Shown: piece by piece, positions 49,741 through 55,576 of the stretch | Position numbering within the stretch: the first letter of the stretch is position 1 | How the letters are laid out: the number at the start of each line of letters is the position of its first letter | NCBI RefSeq assembly: GCF_026004055.1 | Contig: NZ_BPIJ01000001.1 | Location: 558,001-622,000, forward strand | Direction: 5' to 3' | Source: Meiothermus sp. | Lineage (GTDB): Bacteria; Deinococcota; Deinococci; Deinococcales; Thermaceae | DNA: 64,000 nt | Translations under genes and position numbers: made by a program | Notes under the pieces: generated by a model | Database searches by the model: none | What the model was told of the DNA's origin: nothing | The model's input: only the letters and a program-made list of their open reading frames with translations

Positions 49741-51087
49741 CTACTTTCCCCCCAAAGTTGCAAGGAACTCTTTGTTGGTCTTGGTACGGGACAAGCGCCC
49801 GAGCAGCATTTCCATGGCCTCGGCGGGATCCATATCGGCCAGCACCTTGCGCAATAACCACATTTTTTGAATCACTTCCTGGCCCAGCAGGAGCTCCTCG
49901 CGCCGGGTGCCCGACTTAAGGATGTCGATGGCCGGGAAGATGCGGCGTTCCTCCAGACGACGAGAAAGGTGCAGCTCCATGTTGCCGGTACCTTTGAACT
50001 CTTCGAAGATTACATCGTCCATGCGGCTACCGGTCTCGACCAGGGCCGTCGCCAAAATGGTGAGGGAACCGCCGCCCCGAATGTTGCGGGCCGCGCCCAA
50101 GAAGCGCTTGGGAAAATGTAGGGCCGCCGAGTCCAGACCGCCCGAGAGCGTCCGACCCGTGGGCGGGGTGACCAGGTTGTTGGCTCGAGCCAGACGGGTG
50201 ATGGAGTCCAGCAGGATGAGCACATGCCCGCCTTCTTCCACAATCCGGCGGCTGCGCTCATGCACAAACTCGGCCACCCGGATGTGGTTTTGCGGGGGCT
50301 CGTCGAAGGTCGAGGCAATGACATCGGCCCCCTCCACCGACTCGCGGAAGTCGGTGACCTCCTCGGGGCGCTCGTCGATCAGGAGCACGATGACCTTAAT
50401 ATCGGGCTCGTTTCTGAGCACAGCTTTGGCAATTTTCTTCAATAGGGTGGTCTTGCCGGCCTTGGGCGGGGCTACGATCAGGCCGCGCTGGCCGCGCCCG
50501 ATGGGGGCCAGCAGATCTATAACCCGGTTGGAGGACTCCTCGCCGGTGGTCTCGAGGATAATCTGTCGGTCGGGGAACTGCGGTATCAGGTCGTCGAACT
50601 TGGGACGCTTGGCGGCGGTCTCCGGGTCGAGGTTGTTGACCGCCTCCACCTTCATCAGGGTGCCGTAGCGCTCGTTCTCACGTGCTGGACGGGCCTTGCC
50701 CACCACATAGTCGCCGGTGCGGAGCTGGTACTGCTTGATCAGGCCCGCCGAAACGATAACCGTGCGAGAGTCCATGGTGTAGAGGCTCTCCTGCAAGAAG
50801 CCGTAGCCATCTTGGCTAATCTCCAAGTAGCCCTGGGCAATGACCAGGCCTTCTTCAGTGGCCTCCTGCGAGAGCAAGAGCATAACCAGTTCGTCTTTGG
50901 AGAGCTTTTTGTAGTTGGGTATGCCGGCTTCGGCGGCCAAAAGGTGCAGCTCGGGCAGGATGCGGCTCGAGAGCTCCTGATAGCTGAGGGGCACGTTGCT
51001 CTGAACCTTGCGCCGCACTTTCTTGCCGGTGCGGGTTAAGGCGACCTGGGTTTCGGGGTTGGGTTCGGTGGTACTGTTTTTTGGCAT
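49741..51087 (-). CDS. rho: Transcription termination factor Rho
   Basis: 448 aa. The N-terminal basic tail and Rho-N helix region precede the RNA-binding OB fold ([14 protein letters not shown]) and the ATPase with Walker [49 protein letters not shown] and the Q/R-loop region [20 protein letters not shown]. It is a hexameric RNA translocase that ends unstructured transcripts. It lies 32 bp after the transaldolase start region on the same strand, so the two may be co-transcribed. Confidence 0.96.
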
Positions 51088-51119: not shown

Positions 51120-51770
51120 CTAAACCTGGGCGCTGGCCTTGGCCCAGTCTTCCAGGAAGGCCTTCAGGCCTAGGTCGGTGAGGGGATGCTTGATGAGCTG
51201 CTGAAACACCTTGGCCGGCATAGTAGCGATGTCGGCTCCCAAGAGGGCGGCCTGGGTGACATGCCGGGGGTGGCGGATGGAGGCGGCCAGGATGCGGGTG
51301 CCGAGGTTTTGTATCCGAAAGAGATCGCTAATCTCGCGGATCAAGTCCATGCCTTCCCAGGAAATGTCGTCTATGCGGCCCAAAAAGGGCGAAACACACC
51401 AGGCCCCGGCTTTGGCGCATAAAAGCGCCTGGTTGGCCGAAAACACCAGGGTCATGTTGATGCGGATGCCCTCTGCAGAGAGGGTTTTGCAGGCTTTGAG
51501 CCCGTCGATGGTGGTGGGCAGCTTGACCACCACGTGTTCATCAATGGCGGCCAGACGGCGCCCCTCGGCTACCATCTCGGCAGCAGTGGTAGAGACCACT
51601 TCCGCCGAAACCGGCCCCTGCACGATCCCGCATATTTCCTTGATGGTGGGCTCGAGCGGACGCCCCGCCTTGGCGATTAAAGAAGGGTTGGTGGTGACGC
51701 CCGCCAGCACGCCCCAGGCCGCAATCTCCCTGATTTCGCTCACTTCGGCAGTATCGAGGTACAAGTCCAT
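51120..51770 (-). CDS. tal: Transaldolase, small type (TalC/FSA family)
   Basis: 216 aa, the short subfamily shared by TalC transaldolase and fructose-6-phosphate aldolase. MDLYLDTAEVSEIREI, GVTTNPSLIAKAGR, VVKLPTTIDGLKA (Schiff-base Lys) and NMTLVFSANQALLCAKAGA are diagnostic. It acts in the non-oxidative pentose phosphate pathway. The ATG at 51770 has GGAGTGA upstream; an earlier in-frame start adds a non-family leader. Transaldolase and F6P aldolase activity cannot be separated by eye. Confidence 0.9.
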   Translation of the reverse strand: MDLYLDTAEVSEIREIAAWGVLAGVTTNPSLIAKAGRPLEPTIKEICGIVQGPVSAEVVSTTAAEMVAEGRRLAAIDEHVVVKLPTTIDGLKACKTLSAEGIRINMTLVFSANQALLCAKAGAWCVSPFLGRIDDISWEGMDLIREISDLFRIQNLGTRILAASIRHPRHVTQAALLGADIATMPAKVFQQLIKHPLTDLGLKAFLEDWAKASAQV

Positions 51771-51866: not shown

Positions 51867-51895
51867 TTGACGCGGGGTTAGCAGCTTGCTACCAT
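51867..51895 (+). promoter_or_regulatory. Promoter of the ileS T-box transcript
   Basis: -35 TTGACG (51867-51872), 17-bp spacer, extended -10 TGCTACCAT (-10 hexamer TACCAT, 51890-51895). The spacing is ideal and the start would lie near 51902, about 390 nt before the ileS codon. Confidence 0.75.
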
Positions 51896-51901
51896 GCAGG
51901 T

Positions 51902-52264
51902 TAGCCGGTTGCCAGCAGTGGAGTTTAGCACACGCTGCACCCGGTGTAAAGAGCCGGGGACGAGTAGGCTTTCAGCGACCATGAAGCGAGCCTGGGAGGG
52001 TGCAAGCCAGGCGGCAACCTGAAAGTTGAAAATCACCCCAGGCAAACTTGGGAAGAACAGGCGCAGCCTTAGTAGACCCCAACGGGTGCGCCCGAAATAG
52101 CGCGTTAGAGTGCCTGAATATGAGTTCAAAGTCCAACGGCCTGTAGCTATCAGCCTTGGGCCTCGAGCCAGATTTCAGGAAGTGCGGTGGTAACGCGGGA
52201 ACACTCGAGCCGAGCTTCTCGTCCGCACCTGAGCAAACCGGATGGTTCAGGTCGGACGTTTTTC
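51902..52264 (+). promoter_or_regulatory. T-box riboswitch, isoleucine specifier
   Basis: Stem I has the S-turn strands AGTA (51963-51966) and GTTGAA, helix CTTTCAG/CTGAAAG, the distal motif GCGAGCCTGGGAGGG..TGCAAGCC and the specifier ATC (52032-52034) before ACCCC, which pairs with GGGG at the stem base. The T-box bulge TGGT (52188-52191) lies in GTGCGGTGGTAACGCGG, matching the tRNA NCCA end with discriminator A. A terminator hairpin follows. Uncharged tRNA-Ile would favour the antiterminator and turn on ileS. Codon ATC and the next gene agree. Confidence 0.9.
52221..52263 (+). terminator. T-box-controlled intrinsic terminator before ileS
   Basis: GTCCGCACCTGAGC (52221-52234) pairs with GGTTCAGGTCGGAC (52244-52257, small mismatches) and is followed by TTTTT. 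The left arm also completes the antiterminator with GTGCGG upstream, so the two structures exclude each other. Confidence 0.85.
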
Positions 52265-52294
52265 TTGACCATCGGGCTCAGAAAGGAACCAACC

Positions 52295-55200
52295 ATGGTA
52301 GAGGAAAAAAAGCTATTTCAAGAGGTCGCCGAGCCCAACTTCCCCAAGCTCGAGGAGGCGGTACTGGCCTTCTGGCGCGAGAATGATATTTTTGCCAAAT
52401 CCGACCAGAAGCCCGCACCCAAAGGTGAGTTTGTCTTTTATGAAGGCCCCCCCACGGCCAACGGCAAACCCGCCATGCACCACGTGCTGGCCCGCAGCTT
52501 CAAGGACATCTTTCCCCGTTACAAAACCATGCAGGGCTTCCACGTGACCCGCAAGGGGGGCTGGGATACCCACGGCCTGCCCGTAGAAATTGCGGTGGAG
52601 AAAAAACTGGGCGTGCTGGGCCGCAAAGCCCTGAGCCCCGAGCAGATTGCCGAATTCACCCAACAGTGCCGCGAGTGGGTGTTTGCCAACATTGAGGACT
52701 GGAACTACTTCACCGAGCGGATGGGCATGTGGGTCGACCTCGAGAACGCCTACGTAACCTATCACAACAGCTATATCGAGTCGGTGTGGAACCTCCTGAA
52801 GCGCATGTGGGATAAGGGTATGGTGGTGCAGGACTACAAGGTGGTGCCGCTATCGCCCCGCATCTCCACCACCTTATCGCAAAACGAGATCGCCGACGGC
52901 TACCGCGAAGTAGACGACCCCAGTGTGTACGTGCGCTTCCCGCTGAAGCTGGAAACCACGCCCCTGGCGGTGCGGTCAAAGCTCCTGGCCCAGGGTGTAC
53001 GGCTGGAAGAGCTGAAGAACCTGGCCATTCTGGTCTGGACTACCACACCCTGGACACTGCCCTCCAACACCATGGCGGCAGTGAACCCCCAGATGGACTA
53101 TGCGGTGGTGCGCTCGCCCTCAGTGGGGCACCTGATTCTGGCTACTGAGGCGGTAGAGCGGCTAAAGGAGCTGCACCAAGAAGAGCTCGAGGTGGTCGCA
53201 CACCTGAAGGGCTCGGACATGGAGTGGTGGGAGTACACCCCCCCCTTCCCCGAAGTATGCGTGGAGCTCGGGGTGGTGAAGGAGCAGGGTGAAAAGCGCC
53301 CGGACGGCAGGCCGGTCATGCACTTTGTGGCCCTGGCCGACTTCGTGAGCGCCGACGACGGCTCGGGGGTAGCCCACGAAGCCCCGGTTTACGGCGCCGA
53401 AGACCTGGAACTTGCCCGCCAATACGGCACCCCGCTGCTCTTTGGCACCAACGAGTATGGGGTGATGCAAGTCACCGACGAGCGGGGCAAGTTTTTCAAG
53501 GAAGCTGACAAGGGCCTCATTCGCATCATGAAGGAGCGGGGCGTCTTGTACCATGCGGGCCAGATTCGTCACCGCTACCCCTTCCATGACCGCACCGGCG
53601 ACCCCATTCTGTACTTCGCCAAGCCAAGCTGGTACATCAAAACCTCTAACTTCCGCCAAGAGCTCTACGAGAACAACGAGCAGATCAACTGGATTCCCGA
53701 GCACATCAAGCACGGGCGCTTCGGCAACTGGCTCAAGGACAACGTGGACTGGGCCATCAGCCGGGAGCGCTACTGGGGTACCCCGCTGCCCTTCTGGGTT
53801 TCGGAGGATGGGTCGGAGAAAATCTGTGTGGGTAGCGTGCAGGAGCTTTCTGAGCTGGCCGGCCGCGATTTATCGCACCTCGACCTGCACCGACCTTACG
53901 TGGACGAAATCACTTTTGTAAAGAATGGCAAGACCTTCCGCCGGGTTCCAGAGGTGCTGGACGTATGGTTCGACTCCGGGGCCATGCCCTATGCCCAGTG
54001 GCACCTGATGGTAGATGCGGAAGGCCGACCACTGCCGGGCTATGAGTCCAACTTTGAGCAGTGGCGTAAGCACTTTCCCGCCGACTATATCTGCGAGGCC
54101 ATCGACCAGACCCGCGGCTGGTTCTACTCGCTGCACGCCATCTCCACCCTGTTGTACAACCAGCCCTGCTTCAAAAACGTGATCTGCTTGGGGCATTTGG
54201 TCGACGAAAAGGGCCACAAGATGTCGAAGAGCAAGGGCAACGTGGTGGAGCCACTGCCCATGTTCGACAAGTACGGGGCCGATGCGGTGCGCTGGTATCT
54301 GTTTACGGGCTCTGAACCCGGCGAGCAAAAGCGCTTCTCCGAGCGGCTGGTACAGGAGGCCCAGCGGGGCTTTTTGGGTACCCTCTGGAATGTCTATAGC
54401 TTTTTTGTGCTGTACGCCAACCTGGATAAGCCCGACCTGCAAAACCGCCCCCCGGTGGAGGCCCGCCCGGAGATGGATCGGTGGCTGGTGGCACGCCAAC
54501 AACAGATGATTGAGCGGGTGACGGCTGCGCTCGAGGCCTACGACGCCCGGGGAGCCGGAAAGGAGCTCGAGCAGTTCGTCGAGGAGCTCTCCAACTGGTA
54601 TGTGCGGCGCAACCGCCGCCGTTTCTGGAAAAACGACGACCCCACCGACCGTGAAGCTGCCTATGCCACCCTCTGGGAGGCTTTGGTGGGGGTGGTGCAG
54701 CTAGCCTCCCCTTTCACCCCCTTTGTGGCCGAGGCCCTGTGGCAGAACTTGGTGCGCTCGATAGTGCCCGAGGCTGCCGAGTCGGTGCACCTATCCGACT
54801 GGCCTAAAGCCGACCCCAAGCTGATAGACCAAACCCTGCTCACCCAGATGGGGGCCGTGGTAAAGGTGGTGGGGCTGGCCCGCAGTGCTAGAGCCATCAG
54901 CGGCATCAAAACCCGTATACCGCTGCCAAAAGTCTTGGTGACCGCACCTACCGAGGCCGAGTTGGCCGGCCTGCGTCACTTTGCGGGTGAAATCGCCGAG
55001 GAATTGAACGTCAAGCAGGTCGAGGTACTGGGGCTGGGTGAGGAGCTGCTGACCTACCGGGTGCTGCCCAACCTGCCGGTGTTGGGTAAAAAATATGGTA
55101 AGCGGGTTCCCGCCATCCGGGCTGCCCTGGCCGAGCTAGATAGCCAGATGGTGGCCAAAACCCTCAAGGCGGGCCGCAGCCTGAGCCTCGAGATTGAGGG

Positions 55201-55576
55201 CGAGCGTATTATGCTGGCGCCCGAGGAGGTGCTGCTCGAGGCCCTCTCGCCCGAAGGCTACTCGGCCCAAGAAGAGGGGGGTTATATGGCGGCGCTCGAG
55301 GTTAAGCTGGACGAACAGTTGTTGCTGGAAGGCCTCAGCCGCGACCTGATCCGGCTGGTGCAGCAGGCCCGTAAGGAGATGGGCCTGAACGTTTCCGATC
55401 GCATTCATCTGACCTATGCCGCCGAGGGCAAATATGCCACATCGCTGGCCCAGTTTGGCCCCAGGATTCAGGAGGAGACCCTGGCCCTGTCGCTTGTTCA
55501 GGGTGAGCCGGTGGGTTTTGTGGTCGAGCTTTCCGACGAAGAGGGTACCGTCAAGTTTGGGCTGAGCAAGGCCTGA
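52295..55576 (+). CDS. ileS: Isoleucyl-tRNA synthetase, type 2, with altered HIGH motif
   Basis: 1093 aa. Class I synthetase with CP1 editing domain (WTTTPWTLPSNTMAAVNP; VSADDGSGVAHEAP), KMSKS at residues 642-646 and a C-terminal anticodon-binding region of the eukaryote-like/IleRS2 type (GYSAQEEGGYMAALE). The ATP-binding HxGH motif is replaced by AMHH (60-63) in PPTANGKPAMHHVLARS, resembling the GxHH variant of some bacterial IleRS2. It charges tRNA-Ile; type 2 enzymes are generally mupirocin-insensitive. AAAGGA precedes the ATG at 52295. Expression is under the T-box leader. Confidence 0.94.
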   Translation: MVEEKKLFQEVAEPNFPKLEEAVLAFWRENDIFAKSDQKPAPKGEFVFYEGPPTANGKPAMHHVLARSFKDIFPRYKTMQGFHVTRKGGWDTHGLPVEIAVEKKLGVLGRKALSPEQIAEFTQQCREWVFANIEDWNYFTERMGMWVDLENAYVTYHNSYIESVWNLLKRMWDKGMVVQDYKVVPLSPRISTTLSQNEIADGYREVDDPSVYVRFPLKLETTPLAVRSKLLAQGVRLEELKNLAILVWTTTPWTLPSNTMAAVNPQMDYAVVRSPSVGHLILATEAVERLKELHQEELEVVAHLKGSDMEWWEYTPPFPEVCVELGVVKEQGEKRPDGRPVMHFVALADFVSADDGSGVAHEAPVYGAEDLELARQYGTPLLFGTNEYGVMQVTDERGKFFKEADKGLIRIMKERGVLYHAGQIRHRYPFHDRTGDPILYFAKPSWYIKTSNFRQELYENNEQINWIPEHIKHGRFGNWLKDNVDWAISRERYWGTPLPFWVSEDGSEKICVGSVQELSELAGRDLSHLDLHRPYVDEITFVKNGKTFRRVPEVLDVWFDSGAMPYAQWHLMVDAEGRPLPGYESNFEQWRKHFPADYICEAIDQTRGWFYSLHAISTLLYNQPCFKNVICLGHLVDEKGHKMSKSKGNVVEPLPMFDKYGADAVRWYLFTGSEPGEQKRFSERLVQEAQRGFLGTLWNVYSFFVLYANLDKPDLQNRPPVEARPEMDRWLVARQQQMIERVTAALEAYDARGAGKELEQFVEELSNWYVRRNRRRFWKNDDPTDREAAYATLWEALVGVVQLASPFTPFVAEALWQNLVRSIVPEAAESVHLSDWPKADPKLIDQTLLTQMGAVVKVVGLARSARAISGIKTRIPLPKVLVTAPTEAELAGLRHFAGEIAEELNVKQVEVLGLGEELLTYRVLPNLPVLGKKYGKRVPAIRAALAELDSQMVAKTLKAGRSLSLEIEGERIMLAPEEVLLEALSPEGYSAQEEGGYMAALEVKLDEQLLLEGLSRDLIRLVQQARKEMGLNVSDRIHLTYAAEGKYATSLAQFGPRIQEETLALSLVQGEPVGFVVELSDEEGTVKFGLSKA

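Follow-up and report, generated by a model that had tools for sequence, protein, structure and literature searches.

An isoleucine T-box leader in front of a probably mosaic isoleucyl-tRNA synthetase gene in Meiothermus

The ileS gene of this Meiothermus genome (3.18 Mb in three contigs) stands behind a complete T-box leader, and its product is very probably a mosaic protein, the catalytic and editing core of which was replaced in place under the native T-box. The analysis covered the window, i.e., the whole 64 kb stretch of DNA, and 111 genomes of the phylum, an identical set of which was obtained by the order-level and the phylum-level searches. We hold the joint account, a vertically inherited class I T-box and a recombined core resembling that of family f3, with high confidence; switching, direction of transfer, resistance and selective reason are the parts of it that we infer.

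The elements upstream of ileS are listed below. The start of the leader RNA was placed from the position of the promoter.

51867–51895, plus strand: promoter, −35 TTGACG (51867–51872), 17 nt, −10 TACCAT (51890–51895), by sequence pattern
51902–52264, plus strand: ileS leader RNA (T-box), RF00230 at 51947–52229, extent as in the initial annotation
51953–52043, plus strand: Stem I with lower helix, AGTA loop strand (51963–51966) and a distal part with the apical GGTGCAAG loop, by model match and covariation
52032–52034, plus strand: specifier codon ATC (Ile), pairing with anticodon GAU, by sequence, leader alignment and the genome's tRNA-Ile GAU
52048–52082, plus strand: Stem II (TTGGG / CCCAA), covarying, alignment columns 135–139 with 204–208
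52083–52103, plus strand: Stem IIA/B, CGGG/CCCG hairpin with loop GCGC, by model match and leader alignment
52113–52179, plus strand: Stem III (CCTGAA / TTTCAGG) with an inserted hairpin, by sequence
52182–52228, plus strand: antiterminator, GTGCGG/CCGCAC and GCGGGA/TCTCGT around the bulge TGGTAAC (52188–52194), by folding and alignment
52220–52263, plus strand: terminator, CGTCCG-C-ACCTGA / TCAGGTCGGACG followed by TTTTT, by folding and alignment
52283–52287, plus strand: Shine-Dalgarno-like AAGGA for ileS, by sequence

The initial annotation had described a complete T-box, with visible promoter, S-turn, ATC specifier, TGGT bulge, antiterminator and terminator, in front of ileS of a Thermales-like genome, and this description was confirmed: 51902–52264 is a real isoleucine T-box. 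The full RF00230 model (1–219 of 219) matches 51947–52229 on the plus strand with 66.3 bits and an E-value of 5.8 × 10−14 in a 1001-base search (4.3 × 10−14 in the whole-genome search). This score is below the Rfam gathering score of 93, and the default RF00230 scan of the window at that cut-off therefore reported no match. We treat the cut-off as a curator's threshold and not as a defining property of a T-box, since just 14 of the 111 phylum genomes exceed it. The T-box core GGTGGTANCRCG is present once in the 64 kb window. The AUC specifier is an isoleucine codon, in agreement with the ileS gene downstream, and the genome's tRNA-Ile(GAU) ends in A-CCA, which fits the UGGU bulge. Both ATC and TGGT are invariant in 22/22 aligned leaders (family f1, genera g1–g3), where specifier positions were taken from the alignment since the loop varies. 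Of 22 related leaders, 21 follow a promoter pattern of the same kind, and the remaining one is truncated by the limit of its locus. Stem III differs in length between leaders, and the GCGC loop of Stem IIA/B could pair with GCGC at 52100–52103 as a candidate pseudoknot.

The alignment of Stem I comprised 20 of the 22 leaders, two ultrashort ones having been dropped. In it, two-sided changes affect 11 of 23 pairs, against 6.3 after shuffling; just 1 shuffle in 500 was as high, and the result is well above both the shuffles and slid controls. The antiterminator pairs in 100% of the cells and barely varies; it shows no both-side changes, and covariation is uninformative here because the sequence is too conserved. 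The terminator pairs in 78.6% of the cells, with zero both-side changes. In the minimum-energy fold of the whole leader Stem I was not cleanly seen (z −1.72), and a consensus terminator scan did not detect the leader's terminator. When the folds were constrained, antiterminator and terminator reached −29.8 and −35.0 kcal/mol, respectively; the 5' arm of the terminator overlaps the 3' arm of the antiterminator, and the two structures are mutually exclusive. This arrangement bears on whether the T-box could act on translation (class II, Actinobacteria-like) rather than on termination. Translational T-boxes, many with a short Stem I, are known in Actinobacteria (PMC7583486, PMC7778990), but here the antiterminator is overlapped by a hairpin with a TTTTT tail, the Shine-Dalgarno-like AAGGA lies outside the hairpin, and we consider a translational mode of action highly unlikely.

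The leader thus reads best as a class I T-box of the RF00230 kind, as known from Bacillus subtilis and from the ile T-box of Deinococcus radiodurans (Wels 2008). It shares with these Stem I with specifier and distal loops, Stems II, IIA/B and III, the UGGU-bulge antiterminator with overlapping terminator, and an aminoacyl-tRNA synthetase gene downstream, while it differs in being G+C-rich, in its score below the cut-off and in the variable hairpin inserted in Stem III. In a class I (transcriptional) T-box, the anticodon of uncharged tRNA-Ile(GAU) would pair with AUC in Stem I and the ACCA end of the tRNA with UGGU of the antiterminator, which would block the overlapping terminator. As a consequence, ileS would be transcribed when isoleucine or its charging is short.

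The initial annotation had also assumed that T-boxes are rare in this phylum, which did not hold. An RF00230 match at an E-value of 10−3 or better was found in 103 of the 111 genomes, so that annotation at the gathering cut-off, exceeded in the 14 genomes mentioned above, misses most T-boxes of the phylum. IleS matches at 10−200 were obtained in 101/111 genomes. By coordinates, a T-box lies within 600 nt upstream of ileS in at least 49 of the 50 ileS-bearing genomes of family f1, and the fiftieth (G034) has one before ileS at a weaker score (L053), i.e., the leader stands on ileS in 50/50 members and throughout the family. T-boxes on ileS throughout Thermales were what the initial annotation had named as counter-evidence to its reading, and this pattern is the one observed. 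By the same coordinates, the other families gave at least 1/3 (f2), 1/4 (f3), 6/12 (f4) and 12/32 (f5). Three more f3 genomes (G005, G006 and G008) have a T-box 1.3–4.3 kb upstream of ileS and the f5 genome G096 has one at 1.6 kb, distances that imply other sequence or genes between leader and synthetase. Among 40 fetched ileS upstream stretches, 38 contain the T-box core at most 450 nt upstream, the two exceptions being a contig without the gene start and G096. Ile and gly T-boxes have already been reported in D. radiodurans (Wels 2008, PMC2494555), and a 2013 regulon survey lists T-boxes for the Thermus/Deinococcus group (PMC3766115). The ileS leader is unremarkable as a T-box, and T-boxes are common in this phylum.

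Two further T-boxes were found in the genome of the window, one before a Nudix-valS pair and one before glyS. The former (L001:1501–1750, contig C3) has a GTC (Val) specifier and is followed by a Nudix hydrolase gene and then valS; at another locus (L016), valS directly follows the T-box. The latter (L003:1501–1695, minus strand, contig C1) is short. As a separate observation, the ileS leaders of G024 and G023, both of genus g2 (L050:1233–1383, plus strand; L051:4892–5059, minus strand), lack the distal Stem I and are apparently ultrashort (...AAGGGGCCATCACCCT...), with AUC, the UGGU antiterminator and the U-tract terminator kept. According to a review, transcriptional T-boxes generally require a long Stem I (PMC7583486), and these leaders would be a notable exception. 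Open-access literature searches on T-boxes with Meiothermus, IleRS2 with T-boxes, ultrashort Stem I, mosaic IleRS and intragenic recombination with synthetases retrieved nothing relevant, by which absence from print is not established.

The descent of the leader was assessed from its distribution, its genomic neighbourhood and a tree. Two genes next to ileS served for comparison:

51120–51770, minus strand: talA, transaldolase family, divergent neighbour of ileS, by PF00923 and synteny
49741–51087, minus strand: rho, transcription terminator, next neighbour and control gene

The divergent talA-ileS arrangement is seen in members of all five families f1–f5; in 40 of 95 stretches talA is not at ileS, and these include the five distant records, short contigs and the majority of those from f5. 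The gene rho was found in 102/111 genomes. Its full-length matches are 80–84% identical to genera g4/g5 (Thermus group) and 73–79% to f3/f5, as kinship predicts, and it does not display the anomaly of the ileS core described below. The leader tree (69 rows, 205 columns) places the Meiothermus group, the Thermus group and f4 together with a support of 99.9, and the leaders of f5, f2 and the single f3 leader fall apart from them. Left out of this tree were L050, L051, L056, L059 and L070, which lack a Stem I anchor, L087, which filled too little of the alignment, and three duplicate loci. A tree uniting Meiothermus with f3 and G109, a genome of family f5, was not firmly rejected (ΔlnL 40.7, p-AU 0.057), with one f3 leader only in the comparison. 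Taken together, its distribution, its location beside talA and rho, and its tree indicate that the leader was inherited vertically and has long been part of this locus in the phylum.

A horizontal origin of leader and synthetase together, i.e., a T-box and a whole ileS that entered Thermales jointly from Firmicutes or Actinobacteria, had seemed plausible in the initial annotation. T-boxes are indeed most frequent in Firmicutes (PMC2494555), and enzymes of this IleRS type are also present in Actinomycetota and Bacillota. However, the T-box stands on ileS across the phylum, talA is its neighbour in members of five families, and the IleS rows of the phylum separate from nine outgroup rows, with a low support of 39 in the core tree and a higher one of 95 in that of the C-terminal part. 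On the distribution of ileS T-boxes, synteny and the leader tree we reject such a joint import and give it next to no weight. What did prove defensible in the suggestion is a foreign origin of the synthetase core, with a different lineage within the phylum as its source. The features of the gene are as follows:

52295–55576, plus strand: ileS, isoleucyl-tRNA synthetase type 2, 1093 aa, by TIGR00392 (960.8 bits, cut-off 621.4), PF00133, PF08264 and PF19302
52400–54595, plus strand: putative exchanged core, outer limits residues 36–767 (well supported 50–716), by site pattern, trees, AU tests and alignment to 1ile
52472–52483, plus strand: AMHH at the site of the class I HIGH motif, residues 60–63, by alignment
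54218–54232, plus strand: KMSKS motif, residues 642–646, by alignment
54476–55573, plus strand: C-terminal anticodon-binding and DUF5915 part, of probable native lineage, residues 728–1093, by Pfam, trees and identities

The window IleS is a type 2 rather than a type 1 IleRS: MupA/MupB are next best after TIGR00392, and among structures it scores 956 bits with 1ile, 804–815 bits with the chains 8c8u–8c8w and 8c9d, and 306 bits with 1ffy, where the assignment of these chains to type 1 or type 2 is presumed. Its identity to records named as Meiothermus or Calidithermus is 80–91%. In the whole-IleS tree family f1 is split, the Meiothermus group falling with f3 and G109 and the Thermus group with f4 and f2. 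We call genus g4 of the latter group Thermus on its match (1761.6 bits, 821 residues) to 1ile, which we take to be the Thermus thermophilus IleRS structure. A sliding comparison located the split within the protein: the first ~40 residues and everything past ~720–760 are nearer to Thermus and f4, while the middle is nearer to f3 and G109. Accordingly, over core residues 50–716 the Meiothermus sequences have mean identities of 51% to Thermus, 51% to f4, 70% to f3 and 72% to G109, as opposed to 63, 60, 49, and 48%, respectively, over residues 728–1093. Likewise, in an alignment to 1ile the identity is high at either end and drops in the middle. Informative sites support the foreign versus the native grouping at 140:26 within residues 36–767 and at 4:42 outside (Fisher p 8 × 10−22, with limits picked by best fit). 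The core starts near residue 36 and ends between about 690 and 767; its right edge is untidy, as sites 751–767 look foreign and sites 712–735 native. The Pfam anticodon-binding domain begins at residue 728.

The trees of the two parts conflict, and each part rejects the tree of the other in AU tests. These were quick trees, for which 43 of 50 in-phylum IleS rows were kept and seven near-copies or interrupted rows dropped. The AU tests, for which the groups were named after the trees had been inspected, rejected for the core a clade of Meiothermus, Thermus and f4 (ΔlnL 271, p 9 × 10−52) and f5 with G109 (ΔlnL 108, p 6 × 10−11), and for the C-terminal part Meiothermus with f3 (ΔlnL 70, p 2 × 10−4) and Meiothermus with f3 and G109 (ΔlnL 288, p 1 × 10−29). 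The monophyly of f1 itself was left without resolution by the C-terminal tree. Nine outgroup sequences left the conflict unchanged; two of the five distant rows (Bacteroidota) were dropped from these trees. The five came from a whole-protein scan of genome contigs, which returned 15 loci, these five (35–42% identity), used as outgroups, and ten named Meiothermus/Calidithermus records. All ten of the latter show the same identity pattern and AMHH. Two other loci, L054 (G038) and L058 (G041), carry an in-frame insert of ~26–29 residues that interrupts the IleS match at query residue 337/338, in the region of the editing domain.

Some rows of the IleS trees are long or of odd composition, which, together with the quick trees, leaves room for the idea that uneven rates, convergence or a long-branch artefact, and not recombination, produced the conflict between the halves. 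Against this, the identity itself crosses (51/63% versus 70/49%), sharply at both edges, and G109 crosses over in the same way as an independent case, its identity to its genus-mate G108 (f5) being 54% for the core and 76% for the C-terminal part. An artefact is therefore hardly credible as the source of the conflict. Recombination in the reverse direction, in which the core of Thermus, f4 and f2 was imported and that of Meiothermus and f3 is the old one, could draw on the difficulty of rooting the core tree, given the low outgroup support noted above. However, Thermus and f4 are close in both parts (75% in the core and 63% in the C-terminal part), so several lineages would have to have been replaced together, and G109 is plainly a recipient. 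We regard this direction as unlikely. Replacement of the Meiothermus core is the direction suggested by the native ends and by the agreement of Thermus and f4 in both parts, and its donor would probably be another lineage of Deinococcota. The IleS comparison set is without sequences of Deinococcus, which would be the likeliest donor group, and the donor is therefore named only 'f3-like'; the G109 and f3 genomes are draft assemblies. A plasmid donor was also sought, but the 257 of 72,556 plasmid records with a match were all below 60% identity (best 45%).

The exchanged core extends from just before the HIGH site to past KMSKS and includes the editing domain, which sits between these two motifs. 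AMHH is found in 22/22 Meiothermus-group rows and 4/4 f3 rows, and ALHH in G109; the Thermus group has HVGH (5/5 rows), and f2, f4 and the other f5 rows have G(V/I)HH, i.e., GVHH or GIHH. A G/AXHH motif confers mupirocin hyper-resistance on IleRS2, and the Ki of mupirocin is 6.6 mM for D. radiodurans IleRS2 (ALHH) versus 0.20 µM for T. thermophilus IleRS (HVGH) (Brkic et al. 2023, PMC10485003). By analogy, the Meiothermus IleRS with AMHH should be hyper-resistant to mupirocin; selection by mupirocin-like compounds would be a guess. Like the D. radiodurans enzyme of that study, the window IleS is of type 2, has a KMSKS and carries a non-canonical motif, here AMHH, for HXGH, but it differs in being a likely mosaic, in which a native N-terminus and a native C-terminal tRNA-binding part flank a foreign core. 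To the T. thermophilus enzyme (1ile) it is closely similar in the N-terminal stretch and the C-terminal half, while its core is just about half identical and carries AMHH, not HVGH.

In the favoured scenario, homologous recombination in an ancestor of the Meiothermus/Calidithermus group would have swapped the IleRS core (from residue ~36–50 to residue ~690–767), bringing in AMHH instead of HXGH, while the leader, the first ~35–45 residues and the C-terminal tRNA-binding part would have remained native. A broader reading, towards which we lean only slightly, is that a drug-resistant IleRS core spread in Deinococcota as a recombining unit, at least twice (in the Meiothermus group and in G109), each time behind the recipient's own T-box and ahead of its own tRNA-binding domain; tRNA recognition and tRNA-sensing control would thereby stay matched while the drug target changes. 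The distribution of the leader corrects the idea that T-boxes are rare in this phylum, and the mosaic suggests that the active-site and editing domains of an essential synthetase can be exchanged with its leader and anticodon-reading part staying native. Meiothermus versus Thermus as well as G109 versus G108 would be testable pairs in which recombination may uncouple tRNA recognition, editing and drug resistance.
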